In this document: piece after piece, positions 3,318 through 20,517 of the stretch
Layout of the letters: the number at the start of each line of letters is the position of its first letter
Position numbering within the stretch: position 1 is the stretch's first letter
Virus record (IMG/VR): IMGVR_UViG_3300028024_000007
Coordinates: 1 to 64,000 of that record
Direction: 5' to 3' (one strand)
DNA from: a virus
Length of the DNA: 64,000 nt
Notes under the pieces: model-generated
What the model saw: only the letters and a program-made list of their open reading frames with translations
Told to the model about the DNA's origin: nothing
Database searches by the model: none
Translations under genes and position numbers: made by a program

Positions 3318-4142
3318 GTGCCAGCCGTCGCCCTGGTAGACCCGGACCGCGTCGTCTGGGCCGCCCGCCAGAAGCTCCTCCTGGGCGCCAGGAACGACTT
3401 CCACAAGTTCGGCCCCGCCGTCGTCCGGAACGACCAGGGTGAGCCCATCCGCTACGCCCCCATCCACCTCTGGTGGATCGCCCACATCAACTATGCCTGG
3501 AGCCGCGGGAAGCACGCGGGGATCTTCGCCCCGTTCGGCCACGGCAAGAGCTCGGCGCTGTCCTGCCCGCTCCTGGCGTACCTGGTGGGCCACAACCCTC
3601 AGGAGCGCATCAAGATCGTCTGCGCCGGTGACAGCGCCGCCGCCCTCCGCATGCAGTCCGTGAAGCAGATCATGGAGTCGCCGCTCTACGGCCACGTGTT
3701 CCCGGAGGCGCGCCGGTCGAAGCGCGGCAAGTGGACCGACCACATGATGGTGGTCGAGCGGCGCGGGCACGCGATCGATCCGACGATCGAGGCGCGCGGC
3801 GTCCTGACGAAGGCCACCGGCGCTCGCGCCACGACCATCCTGTTCGACGACATCGTGGACGCCGAGAACAGCACCACCCCGGAGAAGCGCGCCAAGAACA
3901 CCCGGCTGACCGAGGTGCTCTGGATGTCCCGCCTCGAGCCCGGCGGGCGCGCCCTGGCGATCGCCACCCCGTGGGACCTGGAGGACACCTCCTACCAGCT
4001 CCGCGCGCGCCCCGACTTCTGCTGGCTCGAGCAGCGCGTGAAGGAGGACCTGTCCGGCTACGAGCAGGACGCCCACAACGTGGGCCTGGACTACGCGGCC
4101 GAGTGCTCGCGCAACGTGGCCGAGATGCTGGCGGACCCGTAG
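3318..4142 (+). CDS. terL: terminase large subunit, ATPase half
   Basis: A 274-residue protein holding only the N-terminal packaging ATPase of a large terminase. Visible motifs: an adenine-binding-like N-terminus, Walker A APFGHGKSS (residues 71-79), Walker B ILFDDIVD (174-181) and the coupling motif ATPWD (216-220). The reading frame ends soon after, at about the point where the linker to the nuclease domain begins in ordinary 450-550-residue terminases. The missing nuclease half is a separate gene at 19735-20517, more than 15 kb downstream. There is no frameshift remnant of a nuclease directly after the stop. The start GTG follows the lysozyme stop by 4 bases. Confidence 0.85.
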   Translation: MPAVALVDPDRVVWAARQKLLLGARNDFHKFGPAVVRNDQGEPIRYAPIHLWWIAHINYAWSRGKHAGIFAPFGHGKSSALSCPLLAYLVGHNPQERIKIVCAGDSAAALRMQSVKQIMESPLYGHVFPEARRSKRGKWTDHMMVVERRGHAIDPTIEARGVLTKATGARATTILFDDIVDAENSTTPEKRAKNTRLTEVLWMSRLEPGGRALAIATPWDLEDTSYQLRARPDFCWLEQRVKEDLSGYEQDAHNVGLDYAAECSRNVAEMLADP

Positions 4143-4152
4143 GGGCTCTGGC

Positions 4153-4158
4153 CAACAT
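4153..4158 (+). promoter_or_regulatory. CAACAT box 7 bases before ATG
   Basis: The sequence GGCCAACAT ends 7 bases before ATG 4166. The same arrangement precedes starts at 1494, 15208 and 24805. It fits the CANNNT form of the -10 element; no -35 box is visible. Confidence 0.35.
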
Positions 4159-4165
4159 CCCCGGC

Positions 4166-4534
4166 ATGGAGAACGAACAAGAGACGTCGGCCGAGCGCGC
4201 GAAGCGCCTGTCCGACGAGGTGCAGAAGCTGGCCCCCGAGGTCGCCGCGGAGGCGGTCGCCGGCCTGGTGGGCGCCGTCATAACCTCCGCCGCCGGCCTG
4301 ACGAAGGAGACCGAGCAGCACTTCCGCACGGCGGAGCGGCAGATGGACACGGGGGCCGTCGTGTCCCTGATGGTCCAGGGCGCCCTCGCGGCAATCTGCG
4401 AGGGACACCCGGACGAGGACGTCCGCCACCGGCTCTACCGGGCCGGCCGGGCGATCGGCGACTTCATGACCGAGCGGTGGCGCTCCCAGATCGAGGAGAA
4501 GGTCGAGGCAGCGCACCGGGAGAACGCTTCGTGA
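4166..4534 (+). CDS. hypothetical helical protein
   Basis: A 122-residue, mostly helical, acidic protein; the middle (EAVAGLVGAVITSAAGL) is mildly hydrophobic. The start is the ATG preceded by a CAACAT box. It is the first gene of the block inserted between the terminase halves. Its stop overlaps the next GTG. No family recognised. Confidence 0.55.
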   Translation: MENEQETSAERAKRLSDEVQKLAPEVAAEAVAGLVGAVITSAAGLTKETEQHFRTAERQMDTGAVVSLMVQGALAAICEGHPDEDVRHRLYRAGRAIGDFMTERWRSQIEEKVEAAHRENAS

Positions 4535-5097
4535 GCGGCAAGCCGTGCGACGCCTGCGGTACTTACAACGACATGCACGACGGGCGCTTCCACGCGCTGT
4601 CCGATCGGGTGAAGAAGCTCGAGAACGTCTCCGTCAAGTACGAACCGCCGAGCGTCGTCGCGATGCCGCCGGGTACGTCGTTCACTCTCACGGGGAAGAC
4701 GGAGCTGCCGGCGCTGAGGATGGTGATCGCTCCGAACAGGTTCCTCATCGCGACGGAGATCGAGGCGGAGCTGCTCCGCGCTCGCGAGCTCTACCCGGAC
4801 AGCATCCGCCTCCCGGACGGAGTCGCTACCTGCCACGCGCGCGTGACGTACCGGAGGATGGCGCAGGCGTGGTGCGAACGCGCGACGCGCGAGGGGATCC
4901 TCACGCACACCGACGTGTTCGACGAGGAGGTCTCGGAGGCGCTCGACGCGCGGTCGCTCGCTGACCTGCGCAAGGAGCTGATCCAGGTCGGAGCGATGAC
5001 GGTGAAGTGGCTCGAGCACATCGACGAGCGCCTGGCGGCGGGCGAGGTGAACACCGCCGCGAACAAACAAGAACTGAAGGGAGGATCGAATGGGTGA
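4531..5097 (+). CDS. hypothetical protein with N-terminal CxxC
   Basis: A 188-residue protein starting at GTG in a GTGA overlap. The N-terminus has CDACGTYND and a His that might form a small metal site; the rest is mixed alpha/beta with no known motif. Codon use shifts here to a less extreme GC3 than the terminase genes, as in the following gene, suggesting that 4531-5530 share an origin. Function unknown. Confidence 0.55.
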   Translation: MSGKPCDACGTYNDMHDGRFHALSDRVKKLENVSVKYEPPSVVAMPPGTSFTLTGKTELPALRMVIAPNRFLIATEIEAELLRARELYPDSIRLPDGVATCHARVTYRRMAQAWCERATREGILTHTDVFDEEVSEALDARSLADLRKELIQVGAMTVKWLEHIDERLAAGEVNTAANKQELKGGSNG

Positions 5098-5530
5098 AGA
5101 CGTCGTCCGAGGCAAGAAGTACAAGAAGCAGCTCCGCGTGGAGATGACCGACAAGGAGATCGAGAAGAAGGGTCGGTCTGCCGGTCACCTCAAGAAGGAG
5201 TTCGACCAGATCAAGGCGAAGCAGAAGGCCGCCGCCGACATGTACAAGGAGGAGCTCGCGGAGGTGAAGACGAAGCTCGACGCCGTGCTCGCCGACCTCG
5301 AGGCAGGCGGTGACGAGCGCAACGTCGACTGCGTGGACGAGAAGGACTTCAAGCGCAACGTCGTGCGCACGATCCGCCTCGACACGAACGAGGTGGCGGA
5401 GACGCGCGCGCTCGCGGCGGAGGAGCGCCAGGAGATGATCGACGGCGCGGATGACGGTGAGGGGGCGCCCGCTGAAGAGGTCGCCGAGGAGAAGCCGAAG
5501 CGCAGCCGCAAGAAGAAGGCGGCGGAGTAA
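5090..5530 (+). CDS. conserved-type phage coiled-coil protein
   Basis: A 146-residue protein, strongly charged, with a predicted coiled coil at about residues 18-70 (Lys/Glu/Ala heptads). The end of the folded part reads VRTIRLDTNEVAETRAL followed by AAEERQEM, a pattern like a family of small phage proteins ending in TGE-V-R-MT-EERQ. The tail is acidic then basic (KPKRSRKKKAAE). Role unknown. A GGAGG sequence lies before the ATG. Confidence 0.55.
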   Translation: MGEDVVRGKKYKKQLRVEMTDKEIEKKGRSAGHLKKEFDQIKAKQKAAADMYKEELAEVKTKLDAVLADLEAGGDERNVDCVDEKDFKRNVVRTIRLDTNEVAETRALAAEERQEMIDGADDGEGAPAEEVAEEKPKRSRKKKAAE

Positions 5531-5536
5531 ACGAAG

Positions 5537-6655
5537 ATGGGCGACACCAGCATAGAGTGGACGGACTGGTCCCAAAATGTTTTTCGCGCGCGCCTGAACG
5601 GGCGCACCGGTCACTACTGCGTGAAGGTGTCGCCTGGTTGCAAGAACTGTTACAGCTCGCGGCTCCAGCCGCGGTTCGGCCTGCCGCAGTTCCAGGAGCA
5701 GCGCGGGGAGGACGCGCCGGAGGTGTACCTCGACCCGAAGAAGCTCGGCGAGGTCCTGCGCCGGAAGAAGCCAACGAAGATCTTCTGGTGCGACATGACC
5801 GACATGTTCGGCGACTGGGTCCCGTTCGAGTGGGTCGCCGCGTGCTTCGGGGTGATGGCCGCGACGCCTCAGCACACGCACCAGGTCCTCACCAAGCGCC
5901 CTGACCGCGCGCTTGAGTTCTTCCGGTGGCTCGGGGGGATGGTCGGCGCGGACGTCAGGACCGGCCTGAAGCTCGTCGCCCCGGCGGAACCGGTGATGGG
6001 CTGCTTCATGCAGGCGAGCCGGGTGCTGGTCGACCTGCCTGGCCAAGCCGCGCTGCTCGTGGCCTGGCAGAAGCCAGTCGCGTGGCCACTCCCGAACGTG
6101 CACCTGGGGGTCAGCTGCGAGGACCGGCGCCGCGCCGACGAACGGATCCCGCTGCTCCTGAGCTGCCCGGCCGCCGTACGGTGGGTGAGCGCGGAGCCTC
6201 TCTTGGAGTCGATCGACTTCCAGCGGATCCCGGCGAACCACGCGGGAGCGCAGTGGGACATGGTCGAGGCGCTGACGGGGAAGGAGTACTCGGACGAGGA
6301 GCTGTTCCCGCTGGATGACAAGGAGGATCGCCCGGTCGCGCCGCGCATCGACTGGGTCGTCGTCGGAGGCGAGAGCGGGCAACGCGCGCGCCCCTGTGAC
6401 ATCGGGTGGATCGGGGACATCGTCGACCAATGCCGGGACGCCGGCGTCCCGGTGTTCGTGAAGCAGCTGGGGAAGCGCCCGGTCGACGGGTCCGTCCCGG
6501 TCAGGGTGGACTCGGTCATCGAGCCCGGGTTCGCCATGGCCGGCGGAGGGAGCGCCCCTGTGGCCTACCCGATCCGCAGCACGAAGGGCGGTGACCCGGA
6601 GGAGTGGCCGGCGGAGTTGTGCGTCCGAATGATGCCCGGGGAAGCCTGGGAATAG
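5537..6655 (+). CDS. DUF5131 / phage Gp37-Gp68 family protein
   Basis: A 372-residue protein of the DUF5131 (phage Gp37/Gp68) family. The hallmark N-terminus is present: TSIEWTDWSQNVF, then Cys28, and VSPGCKNCY with Cys35 and Cys38, a three-Cys cluster like that of radical SAM relatives. Further family features are WCDMTDMFGDWV, HQVLTKRP, LGVSCEDRRRADERI, VSAEPLLESID and DWVVVGGESG. Members are common in phages and near bacterial three-Cys-motif partner proteins; the reaction is not established to my knowledge. Length is near normal or slightly long for the family. It may be a SAM-dependent modification enzyme. Confidence 0.85.
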   Translation: MGDTSIEWTDWSQNVFRARLNGRTGHYCVKVSPGCKNCYSSRLQPRFGLPQFQEQRGEDAPEVYLDPKKLGEVLRRKKPTKIFWCDMTDMFGDWVPFEWVAACFGVMAATPQHTHQVLTKRPDRALEFFRWLGGMVGADVRTGLKLVAPAEPVMGCFMQASRVLVDLPGQAALLVAWQKPVAWPLPNVHLGVSCEDRRRADERIPLLLSCPAAVRWVSAEPLLESIDFQRIPANHAGAQWDMVEALTGKEYSDEELFPLDDKEDRPVAPRIDWVVVGGESGQRARPCDIGWIGDIVDQCRDAGVPVFVKQLGKRPVDGSVPVRVDSVIEPGFAMAGGGSAPVAYPIRSTKGGDPEEWPAELCVRMMPGEAWE

Positions 6656-6673
6656 CCGTCGGACGATTCCCGT

Positions 6674-6702
6674 TTGCGTTCTAGTTTTAATTACGGTAGT
6701 AT
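6674..6702 (+). promoter_or_regulatory. promoter, leaderless type
   Basis: TTGCGT, 17 bases, TAGTAT, then 7 bases to ATG 6710. It lies in an unusually AT-rich 50-base gap after the DUF5131 gene, making it one of the clearest promoters in the window. Confidence 0.65.
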
Positions 6703-6709
6703 CTAGGTC

Positions 6710-6907
6710 ATGGAAACGACGACGGAACGGAAGGTGCCCCGCCTCGCCCCCCTGGCCTTGCAGCCGGCGACTGACATCTGGTCGCACCTGGCGGCCATGG
6801 TGGTCCACTCCTCGGCCTCCACCCCCACGGTCGAGTTCGAAGACGAGCCGACCGTGACGTACGGCGAACCGGTCACGGTGGTCGAGCGCCGGGTGGTGCG
6901 GTTGTGA
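6710..6907 (+). CDS. small hypothetical protein
   Basis: A 65-residue protein placed 7 bases after a good -10 box. It has a basic N-terminus and a beta-rich acidic C-terminal half (VEFEDEPTVTYGEPVTVV). The stop overlaps the next GTG. No family recognised. Confidence 0.5.
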   Translation: METTTERKVPRLAPLALQPATDIWSHLAAMVVHSSASTPTVEFEDEPTVTYGEPVTVVERRVVRL

Positions 6908-7704
6908 ACCCCGGTATCCTGGTCCACACTGCGAAGCGGACTATCGCCGCTCGCTGCCAGCGCAGCGGGTCTCCGTGGCTAGCGCTAGAGGTGTCCCGGT
7001 ACCGGAGGCGTGACGGGTGGGCCTATGCCACCGCCCGTGACCTACCTGGGGAGCGCGTGGTCGTGGTGTCCGGACCCGGTCACGTGGTGGGCCAGCCGCA
7101 CTTCGACCTCCCCCTGTACGAAGCCCTGGTGAAGGCTCGATCGTCATCGGGGACGTCTCTTCCGGAGATGCCGCGCGACCCGTCTGACGGCGTCGATGGC
7201 GGCGGGTTGTCTGATGGTCCGGACGCGCTCCCGTGTGGGCACGCCGGCCCGGCGGTCGATGGGTGGTGCCCCCGGTGCGCCGCCCTGACCGGGGACGCCG
7301 AGGACGTCGCCGGCGCCGCCGCCGAGCTGCTCCGCGCGGGGCGCCTCTCCGGCCGCCTGGCGGAGGTGGCCTTCTACGACCCGCCGGGCCGGGCCGCCAT
7401 GTACGCCGAGCACGAGTGGCAGGTCCGCGCCCGCCGGACCGGGGCCGTGGTCCTGGCGCACGACGCGTTCGAGGCGGCCCGGTGGTTCGTCCGGATCGAG
7501 AGCGGCCACCCGGGGTTCCGCCTCCCCCACGGCTCCTGCTTCCGGATGGCTAGTGACCTGGTCAAGGCGGAGCTCGCTTACAACCGCTGGTGCCGCAGCG
7601 AGCGGGCGGCGTACCTGTCAGCCGTGACCGACATCCACCGCGAGCGCCTGGCCCGCGCCCGGTCCGAGTTCCTCGGCCGGCTCGGCGCCCGCCCGCTGCC
7701 GTAG
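6904..7704 (+). CDS. hypothetical protein, 266 aa
   Basis: A 266-residue protein starting at GTG in a GTGA overlap. The middle has a zinc-ribbon-like CGHAG/WCPRCAAL segment (about residues 110-127). The N-terminal 90 residues look like a small beta domain, the C-terminal 120 are helical. I recognise no family. GC3 is high, as in the genome average. Confidence 0.5.
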   Translation: MNPGILVHTAKRTIAARCQRSGSPWLALEVSRYRRRDGWAYATARDLPGERVVVVSGPGHVVGQPHFDLPLYEALVKARSSSGTSLPEMPRDPSDGVDGGGLSDGPDALPCGHAGPAVDGWCPRCAALTGDAEDVAGAAAELLRAGRLSGRLAEVAFYDPPGRAAMYAEHEWQVRARRTGAVVLAHDAFEAARWFVRIESGHPGFRLPHGSCFRMASDLVKAELAYNRWCRSERAAYLSAVTDIHRERLARARSEFLGRLGARPLP

Positions 7705-7763
7705 GATCTGCCGGGACGGCGCCGCCCGCGCTGCGCCCGGCCAACAACCCAGGAGGAGACCCC

Positions 7764-8288
7764 ATGCGAGAGAACAACCGAGCCCTGAACTTGATGTGCG
7801 CCGCCGTCGTCCTGGCGGCCTCCGGCTACGCCTTCGCCAGCGACCCAATACCCTACTTCCGCCCTGACCCGAAGCCGGTCATGTACGGCCCCGACCTGCC
7901 GGACCCGATGGCCACGGAGTGCTCGGCCAGGGACGCCGCCTGCATCCGCGGGCACGACTACCGGCTCCTGTCGACCGCGCTCAAGGTCCACGACCGCGCC
8001 CTGTGCTTCAAGGCCACGGACGAGGCCCGGTGCCTGGCGGTCTACGACATGGTCGAGGGCGACGTGGTCATCCCGCTCAACCCCGTCCTGGCGGATCCCT
8101 GCGCGCAGGTCCTCCTGGTGGACGGCGGACGGGCGAAGGTCAGCTCGTCGAAGCTCGGCGTCGTCCGGTGGGTGCTGAACCGCGGATACAAGGCCGGGAC
8201 GCACGTGGGCAACTGCCAGACCCAGGCCGCGCTCGAAGTGAAGGTCCCGCTGCCGGAGTGGAAGCCGATGCCCCGGAGCGCGCCGTGA
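7764..8288 (+). CDS. secreted/periplasmic hypothetical protein
   Basis: A 174-residue protein with a Sec-type signal peptide (basic start, hydrophobic CAAVVLAASGYAFA, likely cleavage after AFA at about residue 25). The mature part has six Cys that could form disulfides. A strong ribosome-binding site AGGAGGAG lies 6 bases before the ATG, with a leader of about 55 bases. Such phage envelope proteins can act in superinfection exclusion or host surface change, but the role here is unknown. Confidence 0.6.
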   Translation: MRENNRALNLMCAAVVLAASGYAFASDPIPYFRPDPKPVMYGPDLPDPMATECSARDAACIRGHDYRLLSTALKVHDRALCFKATDEARCLAVYDMVEGDVVIPLNPVLADPCAQVLLVDGGRAKVSSSKLGVVRWVLNRGYKAGTHVGNCQTQAALEVKVPLPEWKPMPRSAP

Positions 8289-8551
8289 GCGACCCGGCAG
8301 AGATGTGGGTCCTCGAGTCGGACTGGGACGTGGAGAGCGGGTCTCCGCTGAACGTCGTCGACGTCGCAGGCCGCGTGGTGGCCCGGGTGGATCCGGCGTA
8401 CCCGGAGGCCGCTGAGGTGGCGAGGCTGATCTCGGTCTCCCAGAAGCTGCGGGAGTTCGTCCAGGAGAGCCACTGGGTCACCAACGTGGACGTGCTGGGG
8501 CTGCTCCTGTGGATCCGCAAGGGGATCGCTCGAAAGGAGGCAAAGTCGTGA
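8285..8551 (+). CDS. small hypothetical protein
   Basis: An 88-residue protein starting at GTG in a GTGA overlap. The acidic beta-like N-terminus is followed by a helical C-terminal half. A GGAGG at the end of the gene serves the next start. Unknown function. Confidence 0.5.
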   Translation: MSDPAEMWVLESDWDVESGSPLNVVDVAGRVVARVDPAYPEAAEVARLISVSQKLREFVQESHWVTNVDVLGLLLWIRKGIARKEAKS

Positions 8552-9737: not shown

Positions 9738-9961
9738 GCCGCCTCAATGAATTGCAGGAGGAACTTCGGCTTTTGCTGATGAAATACTCCGACGTCGTCA
9801 TCGTCGCCTTCGCGCAAGAGTTCGACGTCGGGGAGCAGGTGACACACGGCCCCGTGAAGTACTTCGGGAACAGGGAAGGCTGCGAGGCGATCTTGAACGA
9901 CGAGCTCCTGAAATTTATCTCTCGCCAGAATCGAACCAGGAAAATGCGGAGGAGGAATTGA
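9734..9961 (+). CDS. small hypothetical protein
   Basis: A 75-residue protein with noticeably lower GC than its neighbours. It has a helical N-terminus, a hydrophobic VVIVAFA strand and a basic tail (RTRKMRRRN). It overlaps both the J-domain gene and the methyltransferase gene, whose GGAGGAGG ribosome site lies inside its last codons. Unknown function, possibly recently acquired. Confidence 0.5.
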   Translation: MSRLNELQEELRLLLMKYSDVVIVAFAQEFDVGEQVTHGPVKYFGNREGCEAILNDELLKFISRQNRTRKMRRRN

Positions 9962-10548
9962 ACCAAGAGCCATTCGCGTGCGTGGTGGCCGACCCGCCCT
10001 GGGCGTTCTCGGACCAGCTCTCGGGGGAGAAGCGCGGCGCCGCCAGGAACTACGACGTCATGTCGGTCGACGACCTCTGCCGCATCCCGCTCCCCCCGAT
10101 CGCCGACGACGCCTACCTGTTCCTGTGGCGCGTCTCCGCGATGGTGGAGGAGGCCTACCGGGTCGTCCGGGCCTGGGGGTTCAAGCCGAAGTCGGAGGTC
10201 GTCTGGAACAAGCTGACGAAGACCGGCAAGCCCTGGTTCGGCATGGGCCACCACGTCCGCGCCTCCCACGAGACCGCCATCCTCGCCGTGCGCGGCCGGC
10301 CGACCCGCTACAACGCCAGCACGCGGTCGTCGTTCTCCGCCCCCGTGCTCCGGCACAGCGAGAAGCCGGCGGCGTTCTACGCGCTGGTCGAGGGGCTCTG
10401 CCCGGGGCCGCGGGTCGAGCTGTTCGCCCGGGCGGAGCGCCCCGGGTGGACGTGCCTCGGGAACGAGCTGGTCACGCCGACGGTGTTCCCGGTGGCGCAG
10501 TCCAGCCTGTTCGGAATCGGTCCGGCCAACACGGAGGGGGAGACATGA
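9958..10548 (+). CDS. MT-A70 family adenine methyltransferase
   Basis: A 196-residue MT-A70-type N6-adenine methyltransferase. The catalytic motif DPPW is at residues 12-15 (VVADPPWAF). The SAM-binding side of the circularly ordered fold is seen in the C-terminal half (HSEKPAAFYALVEGL and RVELFARAERPGWTCLGNE), typical of this family. Length fits phage MT-A70 enzymes, which methylate DNA adenines, often for restriction avoidance. The start is TTG, supported by a strong GGAGGAGG. The target site cannot be read from sequence. Confidence 0.85.
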   Translation: MNQEPFACVVADPPWAFSDQLSGEKRGAARNYDVMSVDDLCRIPLPPIADDAYLFLWRVSAMVEEAYRVVRAWGFKPKSEVVWNKLTKTGKPWFGMGHHVRASHETAILAVRGRPTRYNASTRSSFSAPVLRHSEKPAAFYALVEGLCPGPRVELFARAERPGWTCLGNELVTPTVFPVAQSSLFGIGPANTEGET

Positions 10549-10781
10549 TCGCCTGGCTGAAGAAGCTCCTCCGGCGCGAGCCACCGCCCCCGCCGCCTCC
10601 CCCCCCGGTCCTGGCCCACTGGGTCCCCGGGACGTTCGACCGATCTGCGTACTGCGGGGAGGGCGAACCGGGGGTCTACGCGGTGGACGCCCAGTCGTTC
10701 ATGACGATGCGCGACCGCTGCACGCCGTGCTCGCGCGCGGCCTGGTCGAGGCTGATGGCGTACAGGACCAAGAACCGGTGA
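10545..10781 (+). CDS. small Pro-rich hypothetical protein
   Basis: A 78-residue protein starting in an ATGA overlap. A short amphipathic helix (MIAWLKKLLRRE) is followed by nine prolines in a row, then a small region with two pairs of Cys. It may be peripheral to the membrane. No family recognised. Confidence 0.45.
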   Translation: MIAWLKKLLRREPPPPPPPPPVLAHWVPGTFDRSAYCGEGEPGVYAVDAQSFMTMRDRCTPCSRAAWSRLMAYRTKNR

Positions 10782-10792
10782 GGAGGTCAGTC

Positions 10793-10927
10793 ATGTGGAG
10801 AGAGCGAGACGGGTTCGGGTGGCTCGGGACGCTGAAGCTCGCGTGCGACTTCGCGTTCGCCTGCGCGGTCGGGTCGGCTGCCGGCGCGGTCGTGGCGATC
10901 TGCTACGTGGAGATCTGGTGCAAGTGA
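10793..10927 (+). CDS. small membrane protein
   Basis: A 44-residue protein with one hydrophobic helix (about residues 15-40, FAFACAVGSAAGAVVAICYV). GAGGAGG lies before the ATG. Unknown function. Confidence 0.45.
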   Translation: MWRERDGFGWLGTLKLACDFAFACAVGSAAGAVVAICYVEIWCK

Positions 10928-10937
10928 GGAGGGACTG

Positions 10938-12323: not shown

Positions 12324-12336
12324 CAGCTCGGCGCCG

Positions 12337-12345
12337 TGATACCGT
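12337..12345 (+). promoter_or_regulatory. extended -10 promoter before ParB-like gene
   Basis: TGATACCGT (TG, one base, TACCGT) ends 8 bases before ATG 12354. This decides the start over the upstream in-frame GTG at 12336. No clear -35. Confidence 0.5.
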
Positions 12346-12353
12346 CTCTTCCC

Positions 12354-13004
12354 ATGGCGAAGAGAGCGACCAAGGTGGCCGTGGCGAAGGTCCAGGAGGA
12401 GGTGCGGATCGAATACGTCCGCCTCCCGGACGTCAAACCGGCGAAGCGGAACCCGAAACTGCACGACGTCCCGACGATCGTCGCGTCGATCCGGAGGTGG
12501 GGCTTCAAGGCCCCCCCGGTCGAGGACGCCGCCACGGGGAGGATCGTGGCGGGGCACGGCCGCAAGGAAGCGGTCGAGTTCATCAAGTCGGACACGCCGG
12601 GAGAAGTCCCCAGGGGCGTGAAGGTCGGGGAGGACGGCGAGTGGATGATCCCCGTCGTGCGCGGCGGGACGTTCGAGAACGAGGCGGAGGCCGAGCAGTA
12701 CCTGCTGGCCGACAACCGGCTGGTGGAGCTCGCCGGGTGGGATGAGAAGGTCCTCGGGTCCATGCTCCAGGCGGTTGCCGACCACGGCGGGGACGCGCTC
12801 GCGGCCATCGGATGGTCCGCCGACCAGGTCGCCTCCATCGCCGCGGGCTGGGACAGCGACATCACCGCCATCAGGAGCCACGGGGAGAACACCGACGGCA
12901 TCCTGGCGAAGATCGTCGTGTTCTGCCCCCAGGCTGTGAAGGAGAAGGTCTCGAAGGTGGTCGCGGCGGCCGTGAAGCGGTTCCCGAAGGTGAAGATCGT
13001 TTGA
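12354..13004 (+). CDS. ParB-fold nuclease/DNA-binding protein
   Basis: A 216-residue protein with a ParB N-terminal-like domain (about residues 15-135): VKPAKRNPKLHDVPTIVASI, GRIVAGHGRKEAVEF and the helical LADNRLVELAGWDEKVL. Phage ParB-fold proteins of this size are often next to DNA-modification genes and some have nuclease activity. Here it is directly coupled to dpdA (TTGA overlap) and has its own extended -10 promoter. There is no ParA, so plasmid partition is unlikely. It may act as a regulator or a DNA-binding partner of the modification enzyme. Confidence 0.75.
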   Translation: MAKRATKVAVAKVQEEVRIEYVRLPDVKPAKRNPKLHDVPTIVASIRRWGFKAPPVEDAATGRIVAGHGRKEAVEFIKSDTPGEVPRGVKVGEDGEWMIPVVRGGTFENEAEAEQYLLADNRLVELAGWDEKVLGSMLQAVADHGGDALAAIGWSADQVASIAAGWDSDITAIRSHGENTDGILAKIVVFCPQAVKEKVSKVVAAAVKRFPKVKIV

Positions 13005-13852
13005 TCGCGCCGCGTTCCGAGTCAGAGCTGCTGAACGTCCTGGTCGCGTACCCGTACATGTCCGATCGGGTGATCAAGATCCTGTCGGACGGCCAGGAGA
13101 AGATCCGGTTCCTCCTCGACTCCGGCGCGTTCACCGCGTGGAAGGCGAAGAAGAAGATCGAGGTCGACGACTACTGCAGGTTCATCGAATCGATGCCGTT
13201 TAAGCCGTGGCGCTACTTCACGCTCGACGTGGTTGGCGACCCGGCGGGGACGATGCGGAACTACCTCACGATGGTGAAGCGGGGCTTCAAGCCCGTGCCG
13301 ATCTTCACCCGCGGCGAGGACTTATCTGTGATCGACGACTACTACGAGACGAGTGACGTGGTCGGGGTCGGCGGACTGGTGGGGACGCCGGGGAACAAGG
13401 GCTTCGTGAACGGGGTAATGAAGCGGGTGAAGAGTCGTCGCTGCCACTGGCTGGGCTTCACCTCGGTCGAGTTCCTCAAGCACTACCGGCCGTACATGTG
13501 TGACTCGTCGACGTGGGAGGTGGCTATGTACGGCGGCTTGGTCCTGTACGACAGGGCCGGGATGTCGGTGAAGCTGAGCAAGGCGGACTTCGCGAAGAGG
13601 CCGACGAAGCGCGTGGTGGACCTGATCAGGTCTTACGGCGTCGACCCAGCGGTGTTCGCGCGAGACGCGAGCGGCTGGTCGACGGTCGGTTCGGGGAACC
13701 GCATGGTCAACGCGATGAGCGCGGTCAGGATGTCGCTCGACGTCCAGCGATCTCTGGGTACGCTGCTGTTCATGGCCGCGTCGGCTGGCAACGGAGACGT
13801 GGCGAGGTTACTGCACGGTTATGATTTCGAAATGAAGAGGGGGACCACATGA
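13001..13852 (+). CDS. dpdA: DNA-guanine transglycosylase (phage DpdA-like)
   Basis: A 283-residue TGT-like protein of the phage DpdA type, which exchanges guanine in DNA for a 7-deazaguanine base. Visible family features: FLLDSGAFTAWKAKKKI with Asp40, RYFTLDVVGD with Asp76, GVGGLVGT, WLGFTSVEFL and CDSSTWE. It is much shorter than bacterial DpdA or tRNA TGT, as expected of phage forms. The gene overlaps the ParB-like gene (TTG start inside TTGA) and queC (ATGA), forming one unit with the precursor genes. Codon use is less GC3-extreme than the structural genes, suggesting transfer as a block. Confidence 0.85.
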   Translation: MIAPRSESELLNVLVAYPYMSDRVIKILSDGQEKIRFLLDSGAFTAWKAKKKIEVDDYCRFIESMPFKPWRYFTLDVVGDPAGTMRNYLTMVKRGFKPVPIFTRGEDLSVIDDYYETSDVVGVGGLVGTPGNKGFVNGVMKRVKSRRCHWLGFTSVEFLKHYRPYMCDSSTWEVAMYGGLVLYDRAGMSVKLSKADFAKRPTKRVVDLIRSYGVDPAVFARDASGWSTVGSGNRMVNAMSAVRMSLDVQRSLGTLLFMAASAGNGDVARLLHGYDFEMKRGTT

Positions 13853-14523
13853 AGACTCTGATCATCCTGTCTGGAGGCGCCGACAGCGCCGTGCTCGCGC
13901 ACCACCTGGTGGACGCTGGCCACGAGCTCGAGGCCGTGTCGTTCGACTACGGCCAGCGCCACAAGCGCGAGCTGGTGGCTGCCGCGACGGTCGCGCGCGA
14001 CCTGGGGGTACCGCACCGGGTGATCGACCTCCCGGGCCTGGGCGCGCTCCTGAGCGGCTCCGCGCTCACGGACCCGAGCGTCCCGGTCCCGCACGGTCAC
14101 TACGAGGCGGAGACCATGCGGCAGACCGTGGTGCCGAACCGGAACACGATCATGCTCTCGATCGCGTGGGGCATCGCGTGCTCGTCCGGGTGCGACGCGG
14201 TCGCGCTCGGCGTCCACGCCGGCGACCACTACATCTACCCGGACTGCCGCCCCGAGTACCTCCAGGCGCTCGAGCGCGCGCTCCTCCTGGGGACCGAGGG
14301 CCACCGCAAGGAGCAGATGGGGCTGATCGCCCCGTTCCGCGACATGACGAAGCAGCAGATCGTGGCTCGCGGGCTCGAGCTCGGGGTCAAGTTCGAGCAC
14401 ACCTGGACCTGCTACGAGGGCGGCGCGTTCGCGTGCGGCAAGTGCGGGTCGTGCCGCGAGCGCCTGGAGGCGTTCGAGAAGTCCGGCGCCGTCGATCCGG
14501 TCGCGTACGCACCGGCGGCCTGA
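13849..14523 (+). CDS. queC: QueC, preQ0 synthase
   Basis: A 224-residue ATP-dependent enzyme converting 7-carboxy-7-deazaguanine to preQ0. The PP-loop SGGADS is at residues 8-13, FDYGQRHKRE follows, NRNTIMLSIAWG and GVHAGDHYIYPDCRPE are diagnostic, and the C-terminal zinc site is intact (CYEGG...CGKCGSCRERL). No amidotransferase domain is fused, so it is ordinary QueC rather than the Gat-QueC of archaeosine-type phages. It overlaps dpdA. Confidence 0.95.
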   Translation: MKTLIILSGGADSAVLAHHLVDAGHELEAVSFDYGQRHKRELVAAATVARDLGVPHRVIDLPGLGALLSGSALTDPSVPVPHGHYEAETMRQTVVPNRNTIMLSIAWGIACSSGCDAVALGVHAGDHYIYPDCRPEYLQALERALLLGTEGHRKEQMGLIAPFRDMTKQQIVARGLELGVKFEHTWTCYEGGAFACGKCGSCRERLEAFEKSGAVDPVAYAPAA

Positions 14524-14529
14524 TAACGT
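14521..14529 (+). promoter_or_regulatory. extended -10 promoter before folE
   Basis: TGATAACGT ends 7 bases before GTG 14537, giving a predicted leaderless folE transcript. The TGA of this element is also the queC stop codon. Confidence 0.5.
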
Positions 14530-14536
14530 CGCTGAC

Positions 14537-15211
14537 GTGGCGACGTCCGACGATATCAGGGGACGGCTTGAAGCCGCCGGCCTCCCGTACCTCTCCAACG
14601 ACAACGTCAGCCGGGCCGTCCAGCCGGGTGACCTGACTAGGATCGAGGAGGAGGTCGCCGGTCACGTCCGCGGCCTCCTCCGCTCCCTGGTCATCGACGT
14701 CGACCGCGACCCGGGCTCGCAGAAGACGCCCGAGCGGGTGGCCAAGATGCTGGTACGCGAGGTCATGTGCGGCCGCTACGAGCCGGTGCCGGCGGTGACC
14801 AGCTTCGAGAACACCAGGGAGCTCGACGAGGTCTACGCGGTGGGCCCGGTCGACGTGCGGTCCATGTGCTCGCACCACCTGGTCCCGGTCGTGGGGCGCG
14901 CCTGGGTGGGTGTCCTGCCGGACAGGAAGCTCATCGGCCTCTCCAAGTTCTCCCGCCTGACGTCGTGGGTGATGGCCAGGCCGCAGATGCAGGAGGAGGC
15001 GACCATCCAGCTCGCCGACCTGCTGGAGGAGATGATCGAGCCGCGCGGCCTGGCGCTGGTCGTCCGCGCGAGCCACATGTGCATGACCTGGCGGGGGGTC
15101 CGCGACTCGTCCGCGGAGATGGTCACCAGCGTCATGCGCGGGGCCTTCCTGGAGAAGCCCGCCGCGCGGGCGGAGTTCCTGGCCCTGGCGCGGCCAACAC
15201 GCTCGACATGA
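14537..15211 (+). CDS. folE: GTP cyclohydrolase I
   Basis: A 224-residue FolE that makes dihydroneopterin triphosphate from GTP, the first step of 7-deazaguanine synthesis. Key features: KTPERVAKML, zinc ligands in MCSHHLVP (Cys111, His114) and Cys182 in HMCMTWRGVRD, and GLSKFSRL. Length and motif order match the canonical enzyme. The last ~25 residues are extended. It lies between queC and queD with its own -10 box, supplying precursor independent of host folate control. Confidence 0.95.
   Translation: MATSDDIRGRLEAAGLPYLSNDNVSRAVQPGDLTRIEEEVAGHVRGLLRSLVIDVDRDPGSQKTPERVAKMLVREVMCGRYEPVPAVTSFENTRELDEVYAVGPVDVRSMCSHHLVPVVGRAWVGVLPDRKLIGLSKFSRLTSWVMARPQMQEEATIQLADLLEEMIEPRGLALVVRASHMCMTWRGVRDSSAEMVTSVMRGAFLEKPAARAEFLALARPTRST
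15195..15200 (+). promoter_or_regulatory. CAACAC box 7 bases before queD ATG
   Basis: GGCCAACAC ends 7 bases before ATG 15208, inside the end of folE. Same layout as the boxes before 1494, 4166 and 24805. Confidence 0.35.
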
Positions 15212-15627
15212 AGATCGCCATCACGAGGTACCACGACTTCTCGGCCGGTCACCGGGTCGTCGGGCACGAGGGCAAGTGCCGCAACCTGCACGGCCACAAC
15301 TACAGGGCCCACTTCGACGTGGTCTCCGACCGCCTCGACGCCGTCGGCAGGGTGGTCGACTTCTCGGTCGTGAGGGACCGCCTGTGCGCGTGGCTCGAGG
15401 AGAACTGGGACCACCGCATGGTCCTGTGGGATCAGGACCCCGACCTAGCGGTGATCCGCGCGGTCGACCCGACCGTCGCGGTCGTGGGGTTCAACCCCAC
15501 GGCGGAGAACCTGGCTCAGCACCTGGTGTTCGTGGTCGGCCCGGCGCAGCTCGCCGGAACGGGGTGCAGCCTCCAGGGCGTGACGCTCGAGGAGACGCGC
15601 AAGTGCGCGGCGAGCGTGACGGCGTGA
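15208..15627 (+). CDS. queD: QueD, 6-carboxy-tetrahydropterin synthase
   Basis: A 139-residue T-fold enzyme making CPH4 from dihydroneopterin triphosphate. Zinc ligands His15, His28 and His30 are seen in FSAGHRVV and NLHGHNYR, with catalytic Cys24 just before. FNPTAENLAQHL and VTLEETRKCAA complete the family pattern. It overlaps folE (ATGA) and queE (GTGA). Confidence 0.95.
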   Translation: MKIAITRYHDFSAGHRVVGHEGKCRNLHGHNYRAHFDVVSDRLDAVGRVVDFSVVRDRLCAWLEENWDHRMVLWDQDPDLAVIRAVDPTVAVVGFNPTAENLAQHLVFVVGPAQLAGTGCSLQGVTLEETRKCAASVTA

Positions 15628-16298
15628 CCTACCCGGTGAACGAGGTGTTCCTGACTGTCCAGGGCGAGGCCGCGAACGCGGGGCTGCCGGCGGTGTTCGT
15701 GCGCCTGCAGGGCTGCTCGGTCGGTTGTGCGTTCTGCGACACCAAGCACACGTGGGAGCTCTCCGACCAGAACTTCGTCCCGCTCGCCAGGATGCTGGGG
15801 AAGACGGAGGTGGCGACGCCGCAGTACGCGGAGGTCGGCACCGACGACCTGGTCCAGGAGGTGGTGCGCGCGGCGCGCGGCGCGCGCCTGGTCGTCCTGA
15901 CAGGCGGTGAGCCCGCCGACTACGACCTGGAGCCGCTGGCTTTTGGTCTCGAGGCGCGCGGGCTCCGCGTCCAGGTCGAGACGTCGGGGACGACGCCGGT
16001 CATGGTGACCAAGGACGCGTGGGTGACGGTCAGCCCGAAGATCCTCCAGGCCGGCGGGCTCTCCGTCGTCCGGGAGGCGGTCGAGCGGGCGGACGAGATC
16101 AAGCACCCGACCGCGACCCAGCGCCACGTGGACGAGCTCCGGGAGCTGCTGGCGATGGGGTGGCACCGGCCGGGGATCCCCGTGTGGCTCCAGCCGCTGT
16201 CGCAGTCCCCCCAGGCCACCGCCCGGTGCGTCGAGTGGTGCCGCCAGTACGGCTGGCGCTTGTCGGTCCAGACCCACAAGTACCTGGGGCTGCGGTGA
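15624..16298 (+). CDS. queE: QueE, 7-carboxy-7-deazaguanine synthase
   Basis: A 224-residue radical SAM enzyme turning CPH4 into 7-carboxy-7-deazaguanine. N-terminal VFLTVQGEAANAG is the family signature, the cluster motif is CSVGCAFCD (Cys31, 35, 38), and LTGGEP plus VQVETSGT and VSPK follow in order. The start GTG lies in a GTGA overlap with queD. With folE, queD and queC this completes the route from GTP to preQ0. No queF was found, so the base made is predicted to remain preQ0. Confidence 0.95.
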   Translation: MTYPVNEVFLTVQGEAANAGLPAVFVRLQGCSVGCAFCDTKHTWELSDQNFVPLARMLGKTEVATPQYAEVGTDDLVQEVVRAARGARLVVLTGGEPADYDLEPLAFGLEARGLRVQVETSGTTPVMVTKDAWVTVSPKILQAGGLSVVREAVERADEIKHPTATQRHVDELRELLAMGWHRPGIPVWLQPLSQSPQATARCVEWCRQYGWRLSVQTHKYLGLR

Positions 16299-17614
16299 CC
16301 GACTACCGCCCCCGCCTGCTCGGGCGCCTCCCCGGGTTCTCCGACCGCGCCCTCGACCAGCACCTGGCGCTCTACGAGGGCGCCGCGCGCGAGCTCCAGG
16401 CCGCGCGCTCCCAGCTGCGCCTGGTGTCGGCGGCCGTGCCGCCCGCCGCGCTCTCGCTGCCCGCCGGTGACCTCCAGCGCGTCCTCGACACGCCGATCGG
16501 CCAGCTCCAGCTGTCGCTCGAGGGCGGCCGCCTGGGCGACGCGCTCGCCCGGCTCCGCGCCGAGACCAGGTCCAAGGGGATCACCTGGTGGCCGAACTTC
16601 TACCTGGGCGGCGACGACTTCTGGACCACGGACCGCGCCACCAGCGTGAACCTCCCCTGGTACCTGGGGAGCGAGGCCACCTGGCGCATGGTGAACGACC
16701 GGCGCCTGAAGCTCACGGAGGACGACGTCCTGCGGATCCTCCGCCACGAGTACGCCCACGCGCTGCTCTACGCCTACGAGGGGTGGGAGGCGCCCGGCTG
16801 GGAGGAGGCCTTCGGCCCGTTCGGCGCCCCCTACCAGGACGCCTACGAGCCCGACGCGGCGGCCGCGGAGGACTACGTGGTCCACCTGTCCCGCCCCGGG
16901 CCCGGCCAGCTGGCGCACTACCCCCAGAAGCACCCGGACGAGGACTGGGCGGAGACGTTCGCCGTGTGGCTGGCGGGCGTGCGGCCCGGCGAGTACGAGG
17001 AGGGCACCGGCGCCGCCCGCAAGCTGGAGGTGGTGGCCCGCCTGGTGGTGGACCGGGGCAGGTTCTACGGCGACCCGAAGGTGACGGCGCTCGGCCGCCG
17101 CGAGCCGTACCAGCAGCTGACGGAGACGGTCGGCGACTACCTGGGGGCGCGCGCCGCCTACTCGGAGCACAGCGCCATCCTGCGCCGCCTGCCCGACCTG
17201 CACGCCGCGGTGAGGCTGCACGAGCTGCACTTCGAGAACCTGGCCCCGCCTGCCGGCGGGTACCTCGGCCTGAACACGGCGCTCCTGGCGGCCGAGGCGT
17301 TCGGCTCGACCGACGCCTGGCTGGCGGACCTGCGCGCCGCCGCCGGCAGCACGTCCGGGTGGTCCCTGGCGGCGTGGGACCCGAGGGAGCGCCGGGTCAT
17401 CACCGCCCTGGTGGAGGGCGAGTCGCGCGGCGTCCCGCCCGGCTGCCAGATCCTCCTGGCGGTCGACTGCCACGAGCACGCCTACGAGCTCGACTACGGC
17501 GCCACGGGGAAGCACCTCGGCCTGGCGGCGCAGTTCAACTGCGTGGACTGGCTCGAGGTCGAGCGGCGCCTGATGGTCGCCGCCGGCATCCCGTCAGACC
17601 TGGCGCTGGCGTAG
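16295..17614 (+). CDS. metallopeptidase fused to a superoxide-dismutase-like domain
   Basis: A 439-residue two-domain protein, GTG start overlapping queE. Residues 1-250 hold a zinc metallopeptidase region: RHEYAHALLYAY (HExxH, His151/Glu152/His155) and HPDEDWAETFAVWL, like the putative zinc-binding peptidase family Peptidase_Mx, with Glu220 as a possible third ligand. Residues 265-430 resemble Fe/Mn superoxide dismutase: YSEHSAIL (His292), LHELHFENLAPPAGG (His309), SGWSLAAWD and AVDCHEHAYELDY (Asp391, His395), so all four metal ligands appear kept, though the usual Trp beside the Asp ligand is changed. I know of no defined role for this fusion. It may be packaged or released, but no signal peptide is present. 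Confidence 0.7.
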   Translation: MTDYRPRLLGRLPGFSDRALDQHLALYEGAARELQAARSQLRLVSAAVPPAALSLPAGDLQRVLDTPIGQLQLSLEGGRLGDALARLRAETRSKGITWWPNFYLGGDDFWTTDRATSVNLPWYLGSEATWRMVNDRRLKLTEDDVLRILRHEYAHALLYAYEGWEAPGWEEAFGPFGAPYQDAYEPDAAAAEDYVVHLSRPGPGQLAHYPQKHPDEDWAETFAVWLAGVRPGEYEEGTGAARKLEVVARLVVDRGRFYGDPKVTALGRREPYQQLTETVGDYLGARAAYSEHSAILRRLPDLHAAVRLHELHFENLAPPAGGYLGLNTALLAAEAFGSTDAWLADLRAAAGSTSGWSLAAWDPRERRVITALVEGESRGVPPGCQILLAVDCHEHAYELDYGATGKHLGLAAQFNCVDWLEVERRLMVAAGIPSDLALA

Positions 17615-17773
17615 CTCGACCGCGTCATAACTTGACGGATCCGCGCCTGCTCGGCCGGATAGCTTGCTCTGGTATGGACCGCCACCGCGTCGCCCCCCGG
17701 AGGTCGCCGCGCGCGGCAGCCCGGCGGGGACTCGGCGGGGCCGGCCAACATGTCTCCCAGGAGGACGGAGACG

Positions 17774-18949
17774 ATGAGCAGCCCAGAAGAGCGAGAGGTC
17801 GAGTATCGGGAGCGATTGTTCGCCGCGCAGAAGCAGCACGCCGAGGCGATCTTGGTGGAGGCGAAGAGGCAGTCGGTCGCGCTCGAGTCGGTCGCGAACC
17901 TGCTGGCCGAGTACGCGGTGTACATGAAGTCGAAGGAGGCGCCGGAGGAGGTGGAGTTCATCGGTTCGGCGATCCTGGAAAGGGTCGAGAAGATGCGTAA
18001 GACGCCGCACCGGTTCACCCTCCTGGACGCGAGCGACACCAGCGTCATCAGGTGCCTCGTCTGCCACCTCCCGAAGGGGATCATCGCCCACGACTTCAAT
18101 CGCGCCGGCGGCGTCGAGGTCAAGCTGACGAACGCTTCGGTGCAGGCGGGATCTCCGAAGTGCGTCGAGTGCGGCACGCCGGAGTACGTCGTGCCGGGAT
18201 TGTCGATGGCATCGTCGACGTGGCTGTGTCGCAGGTGCGGGTGGGCGAGCGTAGACGGGCTGACGTGGTGCCAGCCGCCGAAGTCAGCGAATACGATTGT
18301 TGAGCAAGACCAAGACGTCGCGTCCGTCACGAATGACCTGACCGAGGCACACGTCGGAATCTCCGGTGCGATCTTCGACCTCCAGCAGCAGCACCTATTG
18401 GTCCCCGAGCAATTGTCGAAGGCGCGGCGCCACATCGACCTGGCGATCGACGTCATCAACGACAAGCTGGTCACCAGGGTCAAGGACGCGGAGAAGCGCG
18501 CGAGGGAGAACCAAGAAGACCGCTCGCAGGCGCTGCGCGTCCTCGACGAAGTCCGCGACAAGCGAGACGCGCTCGCCGCGAAGAACAATGCGTTGTTCGC
18601 GGACTACGAGGCCCTGCTGGTCATCCATGCGCAGCTCACGCGGTCCGCCAAAGACCACGACGCCCGCGTCGAGCAGCTCCTGGCGTCCGAGAGCGCGGCG
18701 CTCGAGAAGGTCGCCGCCGCGGAGCAGCGCGTCCGTCACGCGAGCGCGACGTGCGAGCGCGCCATCGCCGACGCGCTCCACCTTGCCAGGGAGCGCGAGG
18801 GCGCCGTCATCAAGGAGCGCGCTCGCGTGACTGACGCGGTCGTCGCAGAATACGAGCGGATGAGGAACGCGGGCCGGATGTTCCAGTTCGACGTGGCGGA
18901 CATCCGCATGGCGGCCGCGCCGGACTACGTCCCGGTGAAGGCGCTCTGA
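17774..18949 (+). CDS. coiled-coil protein with zinc ribbon
   Basis: A 391-residue protein. Residues 1-75 are helical; residues about 88-158 carry paired Cys (RCLVCHLP, PKCVECGTPEYV, WLCRRCGW) fitting one or two zinc ribbons; residues 190-370 are a long Lys/Arg/Glu/Ala coiled coil. The ATG at 17774 is chosen because AGGAGG lies about 10 bases upstream; ATG 17750 is in frame. Codon use has lower GC3 than neighbours. No family recognised; structural or DNA-bridging roles are possible. Confidence 0.55.
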   Translation: MSSPEEREVEYRERLFAAQKQHAEAILVEAKRQSVALESVANLLAEYAVYMKSKEAPEEVEFIGSAILERVEKMRKTPHRFTLLDASDTSVIRCLVCHLPKGIIAHDFNRAGGVEVKLTNASVQAGSPKCVECGTPEYVVPGLSMASSTWLCRRCGWASVDGLTWCQPPKSANTIVEQDQDVASVTNDLTEAHVGISGAIFDLQQQHLLVPEQLSKARRHIDLAIDVINDKLVTRVKDAEKRARENQEDRSQALRVLDEVRDKRDALAAKNNALFADYEALLVIHAQLTRSAKDHDARVEQLLASESAALEKVAAAEQRVRHASATCERAIADALHLAREREGAVIKERARVTDAVVAEYERMRNAGRMFQFDVADIRMAAAPDYVPVKAL

Positions 18950-19077
18950 TGCTCCGCGCGGCCACCCTCGTCGTGGTGATACTGGTGCTCGCCTGCCAGG
19001 TGGTGGACATCTGGTTCACCGTGACGTCGGTGCGTCGCCTGGAGGCCCGCGTGGCGGCCGTCGAGGCGTGCGAGTGA
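18949..19077 (+). CDS. tiny membrane protein
   Basis: A 42-residue protein, ATG overlapping the previous TGA. One transmembrane helix (ATLVVVILVLACQVVDIWFT) and a short charged helix. It precedes a lipoprotein gene with which it overlaps; the pair has the shape of an inner-membrane/outer-membrane spanin couple but is too short to claim it. Confidence 0.45.
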   Translation: MLRAATLVVVILVLACQVVDIWFTVTSVRRLEARVAAVEACE

Positions 19078-19445
19078 GGCCCCTGGTCGTCCTCCTGCTC
19101 CTGTCCGCCTGCGGTGTGGATGCCATGCCGTTCGGCGGGGCGACCGGCGCCACCCCGGGGAAGCTCTCCCGCGGGGCGGCCGGGGCCGCGGGGGGCGAGG
19201 AGGGCGGCCGCGCCGGTACCGCGCCGGTGTCCAGCGGAGGCGCCCCGGGTGGGTCTGCGGGTACCGGAGCAGGTCCCGGGGGATCCGTGGGGGCGCCTCC
19301 ACTGGGTACCGGCGGATCGGTCGGTTCGACGGGTGGGACGCCGGGGGCGAGCGGATCCGGAGGCTCCGTACCGCCAGGTACGGGCGGCGACCAGGGTGTC
19401 TGCTACGACACGAACGGCAACCTCGGCACCTGCCCGCGCCCCTGA
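19074..19445 (+). CDS. Gly/Ser-rich lipoprotein
   Basis: A 123-residue protein with a lipoprotein signal: MRPLVVLLLLSAC, lipid-modified Cys at residue 13. The mature chain is low-complexity Gly/Ser/Thr/Ala (TGGSVGSTGG-type repeats), ending in a short Cys pair (VCYDTNGNLGTCP). This composition resembles myxobacterial lipoproteins in my experience, a weak host clue. The gene starts at GTG in a GTGA overlap. Role unknown. Confidence 0.6.
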   Translation: MRPLVVLLLLSACGVDAMPFGGATGATPGKLSRGAAGAAGGEEGGRAGTAPVSSGGAPGGSAGTGAGPGGSVGAPPLGTGGSVGSTGGTPGASGSGGSVPPGTGGDQGVCYDTNGNLGTCPRP

Positions 19446-19530
19446 GGGGCGCGCAGGAGCCCGCCGGTACGTCCGGACGCCCGGGACGAGAACGCCCCGT
19501 ACGGCGCGAACCGGTGAGCCAGGCGCCCCT

Positions 19531-19559
19531 TGCCGTATCGGCCGCCGTACCCCAAGGTG
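19531..19559 (+). promoter_or_regulatory. promoter, leaderless type
   Basis: TTGCCG, 17 bases, CAAGGT, then 6 bases to ATG 19566. The 120-base gap upstream (19446-19565) otherwise shows only short GC-rich inverted segments. Confidence 0.45.
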
Positions 19560-19565
19560 GGGGCC

Positions 19566-19721
19566 ATGATCATCCTCATCCCCCTCCTGGCCTGCATCGT
19601 CGGCGTCCTGGTCTACGCCCTGGCCTCGAACCCCAAGGTCCAGGAGATGGGGCGCCTGGCGTTCGGCGCCGGCCTCCTGGTGACGCTCTGGGAGGTCGCC
19701 GGGCACGTCCTGCGGCTGTAG
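19566..19721 (+). CDS. small two-helix membrane protein
   Basis: A 51-residue protein with two hydrophobic segments (IILIPLLACIVGVLVYALA and LAFGAGLLVTLWEVAGHVL) joined by a short charged loop. It sits directly before the terminase nuclease half. The layout is holin-like but could equally be another phage membrane protein. Start fixed by the -10 box and first ATG. Confidence 0.5.
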   Translation: MIILIPLLACIVGVLVYALASNPKVQEMGRLAFGAGLLVTLWEVAGHVLRL

Positions 19722-19727
19722 TACCCT
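19722..19727 (+). promoter_or_regulatory. -10 box before terminase nuclease half
   Basis: TACCCT ends 7 bases before ATG 19735. No good -35 is visible. It would give the nuclease gene its own transcript, separate from the ATPase half. Confidence 0.4.
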
Positions 19728-19734
19728 CGGGGGC

Positions 19735-20517
19735 ATGAGGGCCGTCCCCAAGCTCCAGCTGCCCGAGCTCCCCCGGTGGGAGGAGAAGTTCCCGCTCGAG
19801 GTTCTCCAGGCGAAGGCCAGCGGTCGCGAGGTGGGCGGCTCGGCCATGTGGCTCCAGGGGTTCCGGATGCAGGTGGTGAAGCCAGGGGACCTGAAGTTCC
19901 CCAGCTTCCCGTCCTGCCTGTCCCCCGGCCTGGTCCTGTCCGAGGTGTGGCGCCGCGCGCTGCCGACCTACGTGGGGGTCGACCTCTCCAGCGCCAGCCG
20001 CCCCGGCAACTTCATCGTGGCGGTGGCGGTCGACACGGCGAACGGAATCCGGATCCCCGTGGAGGCCAGGGCCGGCGCCTGGAGCTCCCCGGAGACGGCC
20101 GAGGTCCTGACGGACGTCTGCTCCCACCACCCGAACCTCCAGTACGTGATGGTCGAGAACAACGCCTACCAGGAGGCGATCATCGACTGGGTCAAGAAGG
20201 GCAAGTCGGCCTTCCCCTGGTGGAACAAGGTCGAGGCCCACACGACCGGGCGGAACAAGGCCGACCCCGCGTTCGGCCTCCCCGGGCTCGAGGTGGAGTT
20301 CGCGAACCACAGCTGGGCGTTCCCGAGCGGCGAGTGGGAGGGGCACGAGACGGGGCACGACTGCGCCTGGTGCGTGCTCTCCCGCGAGTTCCGGCTCTAC
20401 CCGAAGTACAGCACCTCCGACGGCATCATGGCGACGTGGTTCTGCAAGGCGGCCATCGACCGCTGGTGGCGCCCCGGCTCCTCCCGCAGTGCGAAGCGCG
20501 ACCACAACGTGCGATAG
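19735..20517 (+). CDS. terL: terminase large subunit, nuclease half
   Basis: A 260-residue protein corresponding to the C-terminal half of a large terminase. Residues 11-55 look like the linker that follows the ATPase (PRWEEKFPLEVLQAKA, GSAMWLQGF). The RNase H-fold nuclease shows its three acidic residues in order: YVGVDLSSAS (Asp83), VMVENNAYQ (Glu141) and STSDGIMATWF (Asp229). It has its own ATG and -10 box and no ATPase motif. Together with 3318-4142 it would make a normal-sized 534-residue terminase, presumably as two interacting chains. Confidence 0.8.
   Translation: MRAVPKLQLPELPRWEEKFPLEVLQAKASGREVGGSAMWLQGFRMQVVKPGDLKFPSFPSCLSPGLVLSEVWRRALPTYVGVDLSSASRPGNFIVAVAVDTANGIRIPVEARAGAWSSPETAEVLTDVCSHHPNLQYVMVENNAYQEAIIDWVKKGKSAFPWWNKVEAHTTGRNKADPAFGLPGLEVEFANHSWAFPSGEWEGHETGHDCAWCVLSREFRLYPKYSTSDGIMATWFCKAAIDRWWRPGSSRSAKRDHNVR

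Follow-up and report, generated by a model that had tools for sequence, protein, structure and literature searches.

Two terL genes in the window genome

The DNA examined in this study (the window) is a stretch of 64,000 nucleotides, positions 1 to 64,000 of the IMG/VR virus record IMGVR_UViG_3300028024_000007. It contains two genes on the same strand that resemble the ATPase and nuclease parts of one large terminase (TerL), the DNA-packaging enzyme. The record containing the window (92,779 bp, designated G000) has ends that share about 130 bp, with a single indel, and therefore looks complete. As shown in Table 1, the two domains occupy separate open reading frames (ORFs), with 15,592 bp between them, and the same was found in three relatives. 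Both halves matched the TerL family PHROG 38 over consecutive, non-overlapping stretches (ATPase 267-477, nuclease 487-683). Their combined length was 534 aa (274 + 260), compared to 488-555 aa in fused TerLs. A preliminary description of the window had proposed a large terminase of normal summed length in two genes 15.6 kb apart, and these matches to a terminase profile bear it out. It had also named a third, full-length terminase gene as the thing to look for. Searches with phrog_38, PF03354, PF03237 and PF17289 found no second TerL in the 92.8-kb genome, whose large proteins, as scanned, were the sheath, tape measure, helicases and others. The genome thus has distinct ATPase-domain and nuclease-domain genes and no full-length TerL.

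The first chain has an additional strand, conserved glutamate (ASCE) ATPase core. The Walker A, Walker B and coupling motifs, already named in the preliminary description, were read in the translation and were kept in all four genomes. The chain also matched the T7-type TerL model NF033889 (E=2e-17, below cut-off) and the PDB terminases 8dgc and 4bij (E about 1e-6). These best matches liken it to the T7-type TerL (gp19, DNA maturase B), which is however a single polypeptide. A profile of the ATPase half aligned with fused TerLs over the whole core (E=6e-22), and the best match of its structural model was the PhiV-1 terminase. The final ATPase-core strand (WLEQRVKEDL) is followed by a tail, GYEQxxxNxGxDY..., that closes the chain and is kept in 4/4 genomes. 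The tail was predicted to form a strand and a terminal helix in a model with a mean predicted local distance difference test score (pLDDT) of 62. Since 4 bases separate the GTG start from the end of the preceding ORF (2678-3313), the ATPase gene is probably expressed with the upstream operon.

The second chain opens on a short piece that includes LPxxPxW. It is followed by the counterpart of the 'LWPE...' segment known from fused TerLs, the second part of the linker subdomain, and then by the nuclease. Its best member match to PHROG 38 had an E-value of 2.2e-11, and its counterpart in the relative G004 matched Pfam Terminase_6C (PF17289) at 5.8e-4, under the curated cut-off. In a profile-profile comparison with fused TerLs (E=6e-4), D83, E141 and D229 fell on their metal-binding acids, in agreement with the triad predicted earlier. 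The structural model had an RNase H-like topology, with the terminase nucleases of SPP1 and human cytomegalovirus among its weak matches. Because the pLDDT of this model was 40, the fold matches lend weak support to an RNase H-like fold, while the three metal-binding acids are placed by the profile comparison. An inserted cluster of H, H or C, C and C in the nuclease may bind metal. Known phages and plasmids gave no tblastn match to the nuclease half.

A -10 box had been predicted 5' of the nuclease gene. A TANNNT box was found 7-8 bases 5' of the nuclease ATG in the window genome and in G001, but not in G004. The pattern TANNNT-N5-9-ATG was enriched on the coding strand, where it occurred 19 times versus about 6 expected, compared to 2 times on the other strand. 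This enrichment points to a host with leaderless genes. As judged from sequence, the phage encodes both working halves of its DNA-packaging enzyme in separate genes.

Table 1. Features of the split terminase and its surroundings in the window
Feature	Position	Strand	Evidence or remark
TerL ATPase chain, 274 aa, GTG start	3318..4142	+	PHROG 38 E=1.7e-28
Walker A, FGHGKSS	3534..3554	+	Translation; F-G-x-G-K-[ST]-S in 4/4 genomes
Walker B region, TTILFDD	3831..3851	+	Translation; FDD invariant in 4/4 genomes
Coupling motif, IATPWD	3960..3977	+	Invariant in 4/4 genomes
Conserved C-terminal tail of ATPase chain (GYEQDAHNVGLDY...)	4041..4139	+	Y-x-Q...N-x-G-x-DY in 4/4 genomes
7-deazaguanine DNA-modification cluster (DpdA/TGT-like, QueC, FolE, QueE)	12812..16298	+	Not the cause of the split
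TACCCT, -10-like box (leaderless-type), 7 bases 5' of nuclease ATG	19722..19727	+	Sequence; motif enrichment
TerL linker and nuclease chain, 260 aa	19735..20517	+	PHROG 38 positions 488-683, E=7.3e-8 (window protein)
Linker-subdomain part, LPxxPxWE..FP ... PGDLKFPSF	19735..19902	+	Profile match from residue 15; N-terminus conserved in five phages
Catalytic Asp83	19981..19983	+	Invariant; aligned to fused TerL motif I
Catalytic Glu141	20155..20157	+	Invariant; aligned to fused TerL motif II
Putative metal-binding knuckle H204-x3-H208-x-C210-x2-C213, nuclease insertion	20344..20373	+	H, H or C, C, C in all nucleases seen
Catalytic Asp229	20419..20421	+	Invariant; aligned to DD of fused TerL motif III
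Portal gene, 3' of nuclease chain (usual TerL neighbourhood)	22982..24790	+	PF05133 E=4e-8

Conservation of the split in related genomes

IMG/VR was scanned with the ATPase, nuclease and tail sheath proteins, and three further genomes with both halves were found. They were IMGVR_UViG_3300026078_000023 (G001, 93 kb), IMGVR_UViG_3300028563_000014 (G004, 87 kb) and IMGVR_UViG_3300021403_000011 (G007, 60 kb). Their ATPases were 69% (273 aa), 60% (275 aa) and 44% (268 aa) identical to that of the window, respectively, and their nucleases 78%, 67% and 52%. The gap between the two genes was 15.6 kb in the window genome and 16.8, 13.8 and 15.8 kb in G001, G004 and G007. In 4/4 genomes the ATPase came first, the nuclease lay on the same strand 5' of the portal gene, and the break fell in the same residue region, a point that the preliminary description had suggested looking for in related phages. 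The virion genes were syntenic across the four. The three longest contigs have terminal overlaps and look complete, and no other phrog_38 match was found in them. A short contig has a fifth nuclease (L054) at its edge, which was uninformative on the split.

The ends that face the break, namely the ATPase tail and the nuclease N-terminus, were conserved. The ratio of nonsynonymous to synonymous substitution rates (dN/dS) between the window genome and G001 was about 0.5 for the ATPase and about 0.4 for the nuclease, which indicates purifying selection (NG86 method, crude at a third-position GC content of 97-98%). All four genomes are metagenome assemblies, which would speak for a chimera, or for a broken and decaying terL. 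However, the break is common to four independent assemblies at 44-69% ATPase identity, the frames are intact and conserved without another TerL, and dN/dS is below 1. Since the same split was found in three divergent relatives, assembly error or recent gene breakage was excluded, and we regard the chance of either as negligible.

Prophage relatives were also sought. None was found with the sheath or ATPase in 84,980 bacterial and archaeal genomes, in a pattern-based scan of limited reach. The major capsid protein was 33% identical to its counterpart in Streptomyces phage Kromp.

Relation to known split terminases

The preliminary description called two-chain terminases uncommon. This is fair, but such genes have already been annotated in cultured Arthrobacter phages. 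Separate genes for a 'terminase large subunit, ATPase domain' and a 'nuclease domain' were reported for KellEzio, Kitkat, BeatusComedenti and DanielleIgnace (PMC5513430). The first three belong to Kelleziovirus (Arthrobacter cluster AT). As in the window, both halves of KellEzio matched PHROG 38 (ATPase 288-470, nuclease 498-699), with the ATPase first and on the same strand. The break was also alike, at PHROG 38 positions 477|487 in the window and 470|498 in KellEzio, where the nuclease half begins just before LWPERW. However, the genes of Kelleziovirus and DanielleIgnace are only about 0.9-1.9 kb apart (3-6 genes), compared to 14-17 kb here. The Kelleziovirus proteins are also distant, with a blastp E-value of about 1e-6 for the nuclease (in a tiny set) and no significant match for the window ATPase.

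In a tree of the joined halves, the four genomes formed one fully supported clade, and KellEzio and DanielleIgnace another. A single origin of all split forms appeared in 8% of bootstrap trees and had a p-value of 0.165 in the approximately unbiased (AU) test, so the data are compatible with the split having arisen once or twice. Another type is known from BillyTP and most Arthrobacter cluster AY phages, which have adjacent split terL genes for ATPase and nuclease (PMC11920828). In BillyTP, by contrast, the genes are consecutive and overlapping, belong to the PHROG 9 family and are broken after the linker (359 + 198 aa). These comparisons indicate that the window phage is a widely spaced new example of a known but little-discussed split TerL and not the first. 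According to a review of jumbo phages, the nuclease domain is universally associated with the large subunit in Caudovirales (PMC7824862), and specialists may therefore still be surprised by a split TerL. Caution is also needed in annotation and TerL-tree pipelines, because the nuclease half escapes plain protein searches of phage records.

Proposed assembly of a terminase from two chains

Models of viral DNA packaging assume a covalent ATPase-linker-nuclease chain. We consider it very probable that the large terminase of these phages consists of two separately translated chains that reassemble through a split linker subdomain into one TerL protomer. The first gene would supply the packaging ATPase core. 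The distant second gene would supply the C-terminal part of the linker subdomain and an RNase H-like nuclease for headful or end cutting. The linker (transmission) subdomain was placed using the subdomain limits of T4. On this placement the break would lie within it, after the last ATPase-core strand and before the 'LWPE' segment. As the subdomain is divided between the chains, it would be a natural site for reassembly. The chains may bind by jointly completing it, perhaps aided by the conserved ATPase tail, and the pair would act as one protomer at the portal. The sequences directly show homology to TerL, preserved motifs, each half present once and a break conserved across four divergent genomes, whereas separate translation, non-covalent reassembly and function are inferred.

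Several points weigh against this reading. The chains are predicted from their genes and their complex is putative, confidence in the structural models is low to medium (pLDDT 40 for the nuclease and 62 for the ATPase), and a small terminase was not identified. In addition, when T4 gp17 was cut at the linker, its ATPase and nuclease activities survived, whereas translocation was lost (PMC3012670; PMC9958956). That cut was probably made at a different point from the phage break. Because translocation is lost in the cut T4 protein, natural split terminases must reassemble or translocate differently. A tentative and rather unlikely proposal goes further. It holds that the phages form an old clade in which no covalent bond ever joins the ATPase chain to the nuclease chain, the two can be made separately from distant loci, and terL was split by homing endonucleases inserted into it. 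The nuclease could then join or leave the motor, with nuclease-free ATPase rings translocating the DNA. If so, the two chains might differ in amount or in the timing of their synthesis.

The phi29 packaging ATPase has only a vestigial nuclease, and packaging ATPases without a nuclease exist (PMC7672431). The ATPase of the window phage might likewise package alone while the nuclease half has a different role, such as that of a resolvase-like RNase H enzyme. In a Foldseek search with the low-confidence nuclease model, poxvirus resolvases indeed ranked above terminases. However, the TerL-profile match of the nuclease begins at the linker (residue 15) and resumes where the ATPase half ends, its gene lies 5' of the portal gene, and it is always present with the ATPase half in genomes holding both regions. 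We therefore think such a separate role improbable.

A normal TerL could also be restored after expression if the halves were joined by RNA trans-splicing, with a group I or II intron divided between them, or by a split intein. Introns and inteins are frequent in TerL genes, as in ICP1 (PMC10448857), Jug phages (PMC12363816) and Mic1 (PMC7156551). A fused full-length TerL of another virus (L001:5632-8271) has an intein inserted at Walker B, and the window phage itself has an intein in its helicase. This 785-aa UvsW-like helicase (genome 74062-76419, L012:10062-12419), which lies beyond the window, matched the intein family PF14890 and HNH-like PHROGs, and its homologue in G001 gave a partial-length match only (471-aa ORF). 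Against joining, Rfam scans found no intron in window positions 1-24000 or in 40 kb of G007, and no intein N- or C-motif was seen by inspection at the facing ends, as the preliminary description had also concluded. In 4/4 genomes both halves have start and stop codons of their own, at matching places. The extra tails conserved at the break would be superfluous at the edge of an exon or extein and also argue against a joined product, and we give this explanation little credence.

The natural split is deeply conserved and also occurs, in this type, in plaque-forming Arthrobacter phages that are easily cultured. The need for a covalent link is thus directly testable, against the alternative that completion of the linker subdomain suffices.

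Origin of the split

As judged from its distribution, the split is older than the common ancestor of the four phages. Essential enzymes in pieces that reassemble from two chains are known from Aeh1, whose NrdA is split by mobE, and from T4, whose topoisomerase is split by mobA (PMC2988022). In those cases a homing endonuclease lies at the break, and HNH genes were likewise found at both split-terL ends in G007. The pieces are adjacent there but about 15 kb apart here, and no HNH gene was found at the terL break in the window genome, G001 or G004.

In G007, one HNH_3 gene (L043:10064-10597, contig 10064-10597) overlaps the ATPase stop. The last part of this ATPase gene is AT-rich (55-58% GC compared to 69%). 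A second HNH_3 gene (L044:5324-5872, contig 25324-25872), 55% identical to the first, lies directly 5' of the nuclease and is preceded by a remnant of the first codons of the nuclease (L044:5273-5305, with the live copy at 5869-5901). Both copies encode NRGQQLPSIP, and all differences within this peptide are synonymous. By its sequence, the remnant is the expected trace of a homing element that restores the 5' end of its host gene. Since the remnant has its own start codon, the arrival of the second HNH gene postdates the split. Even so, the original split may have been the work of HNH elements. A plausible origin would be that a homing endonuclease gene entered terL and the locus was then rearranged.

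DNA between the halves

The preliminary description placed a DNA-modification cluster in the block between the halves. The 7-deazaguanine cluster is real, though it fills only part of the block (Table 1). As a cause of the split it was ruled out, because tblastn found no match of its genes in G004 or G007, both of which have the same split. The genes suggest 7-deazaguanine-modified DNA in the window genome and G001, whereas G004 and G007 give no such indication.

Other ORFs of the block were also noted. A DUF5131 (PF07505) protein (window 5537-6655) lies near the ATPase gene and also occurs in G001 and G007. A DNA methyltransferase-like ORF (window 9958-10548; PHROG 359, E=4e-63) was also found in G007. 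A 531-aa ORF (window 16019-17614) resembled superoxide dismutases at its C-terminus (PF02777, E=4e-10) and, weakly, a metallopeptidase, and it lies between the terL halves in 4/4 genomes.

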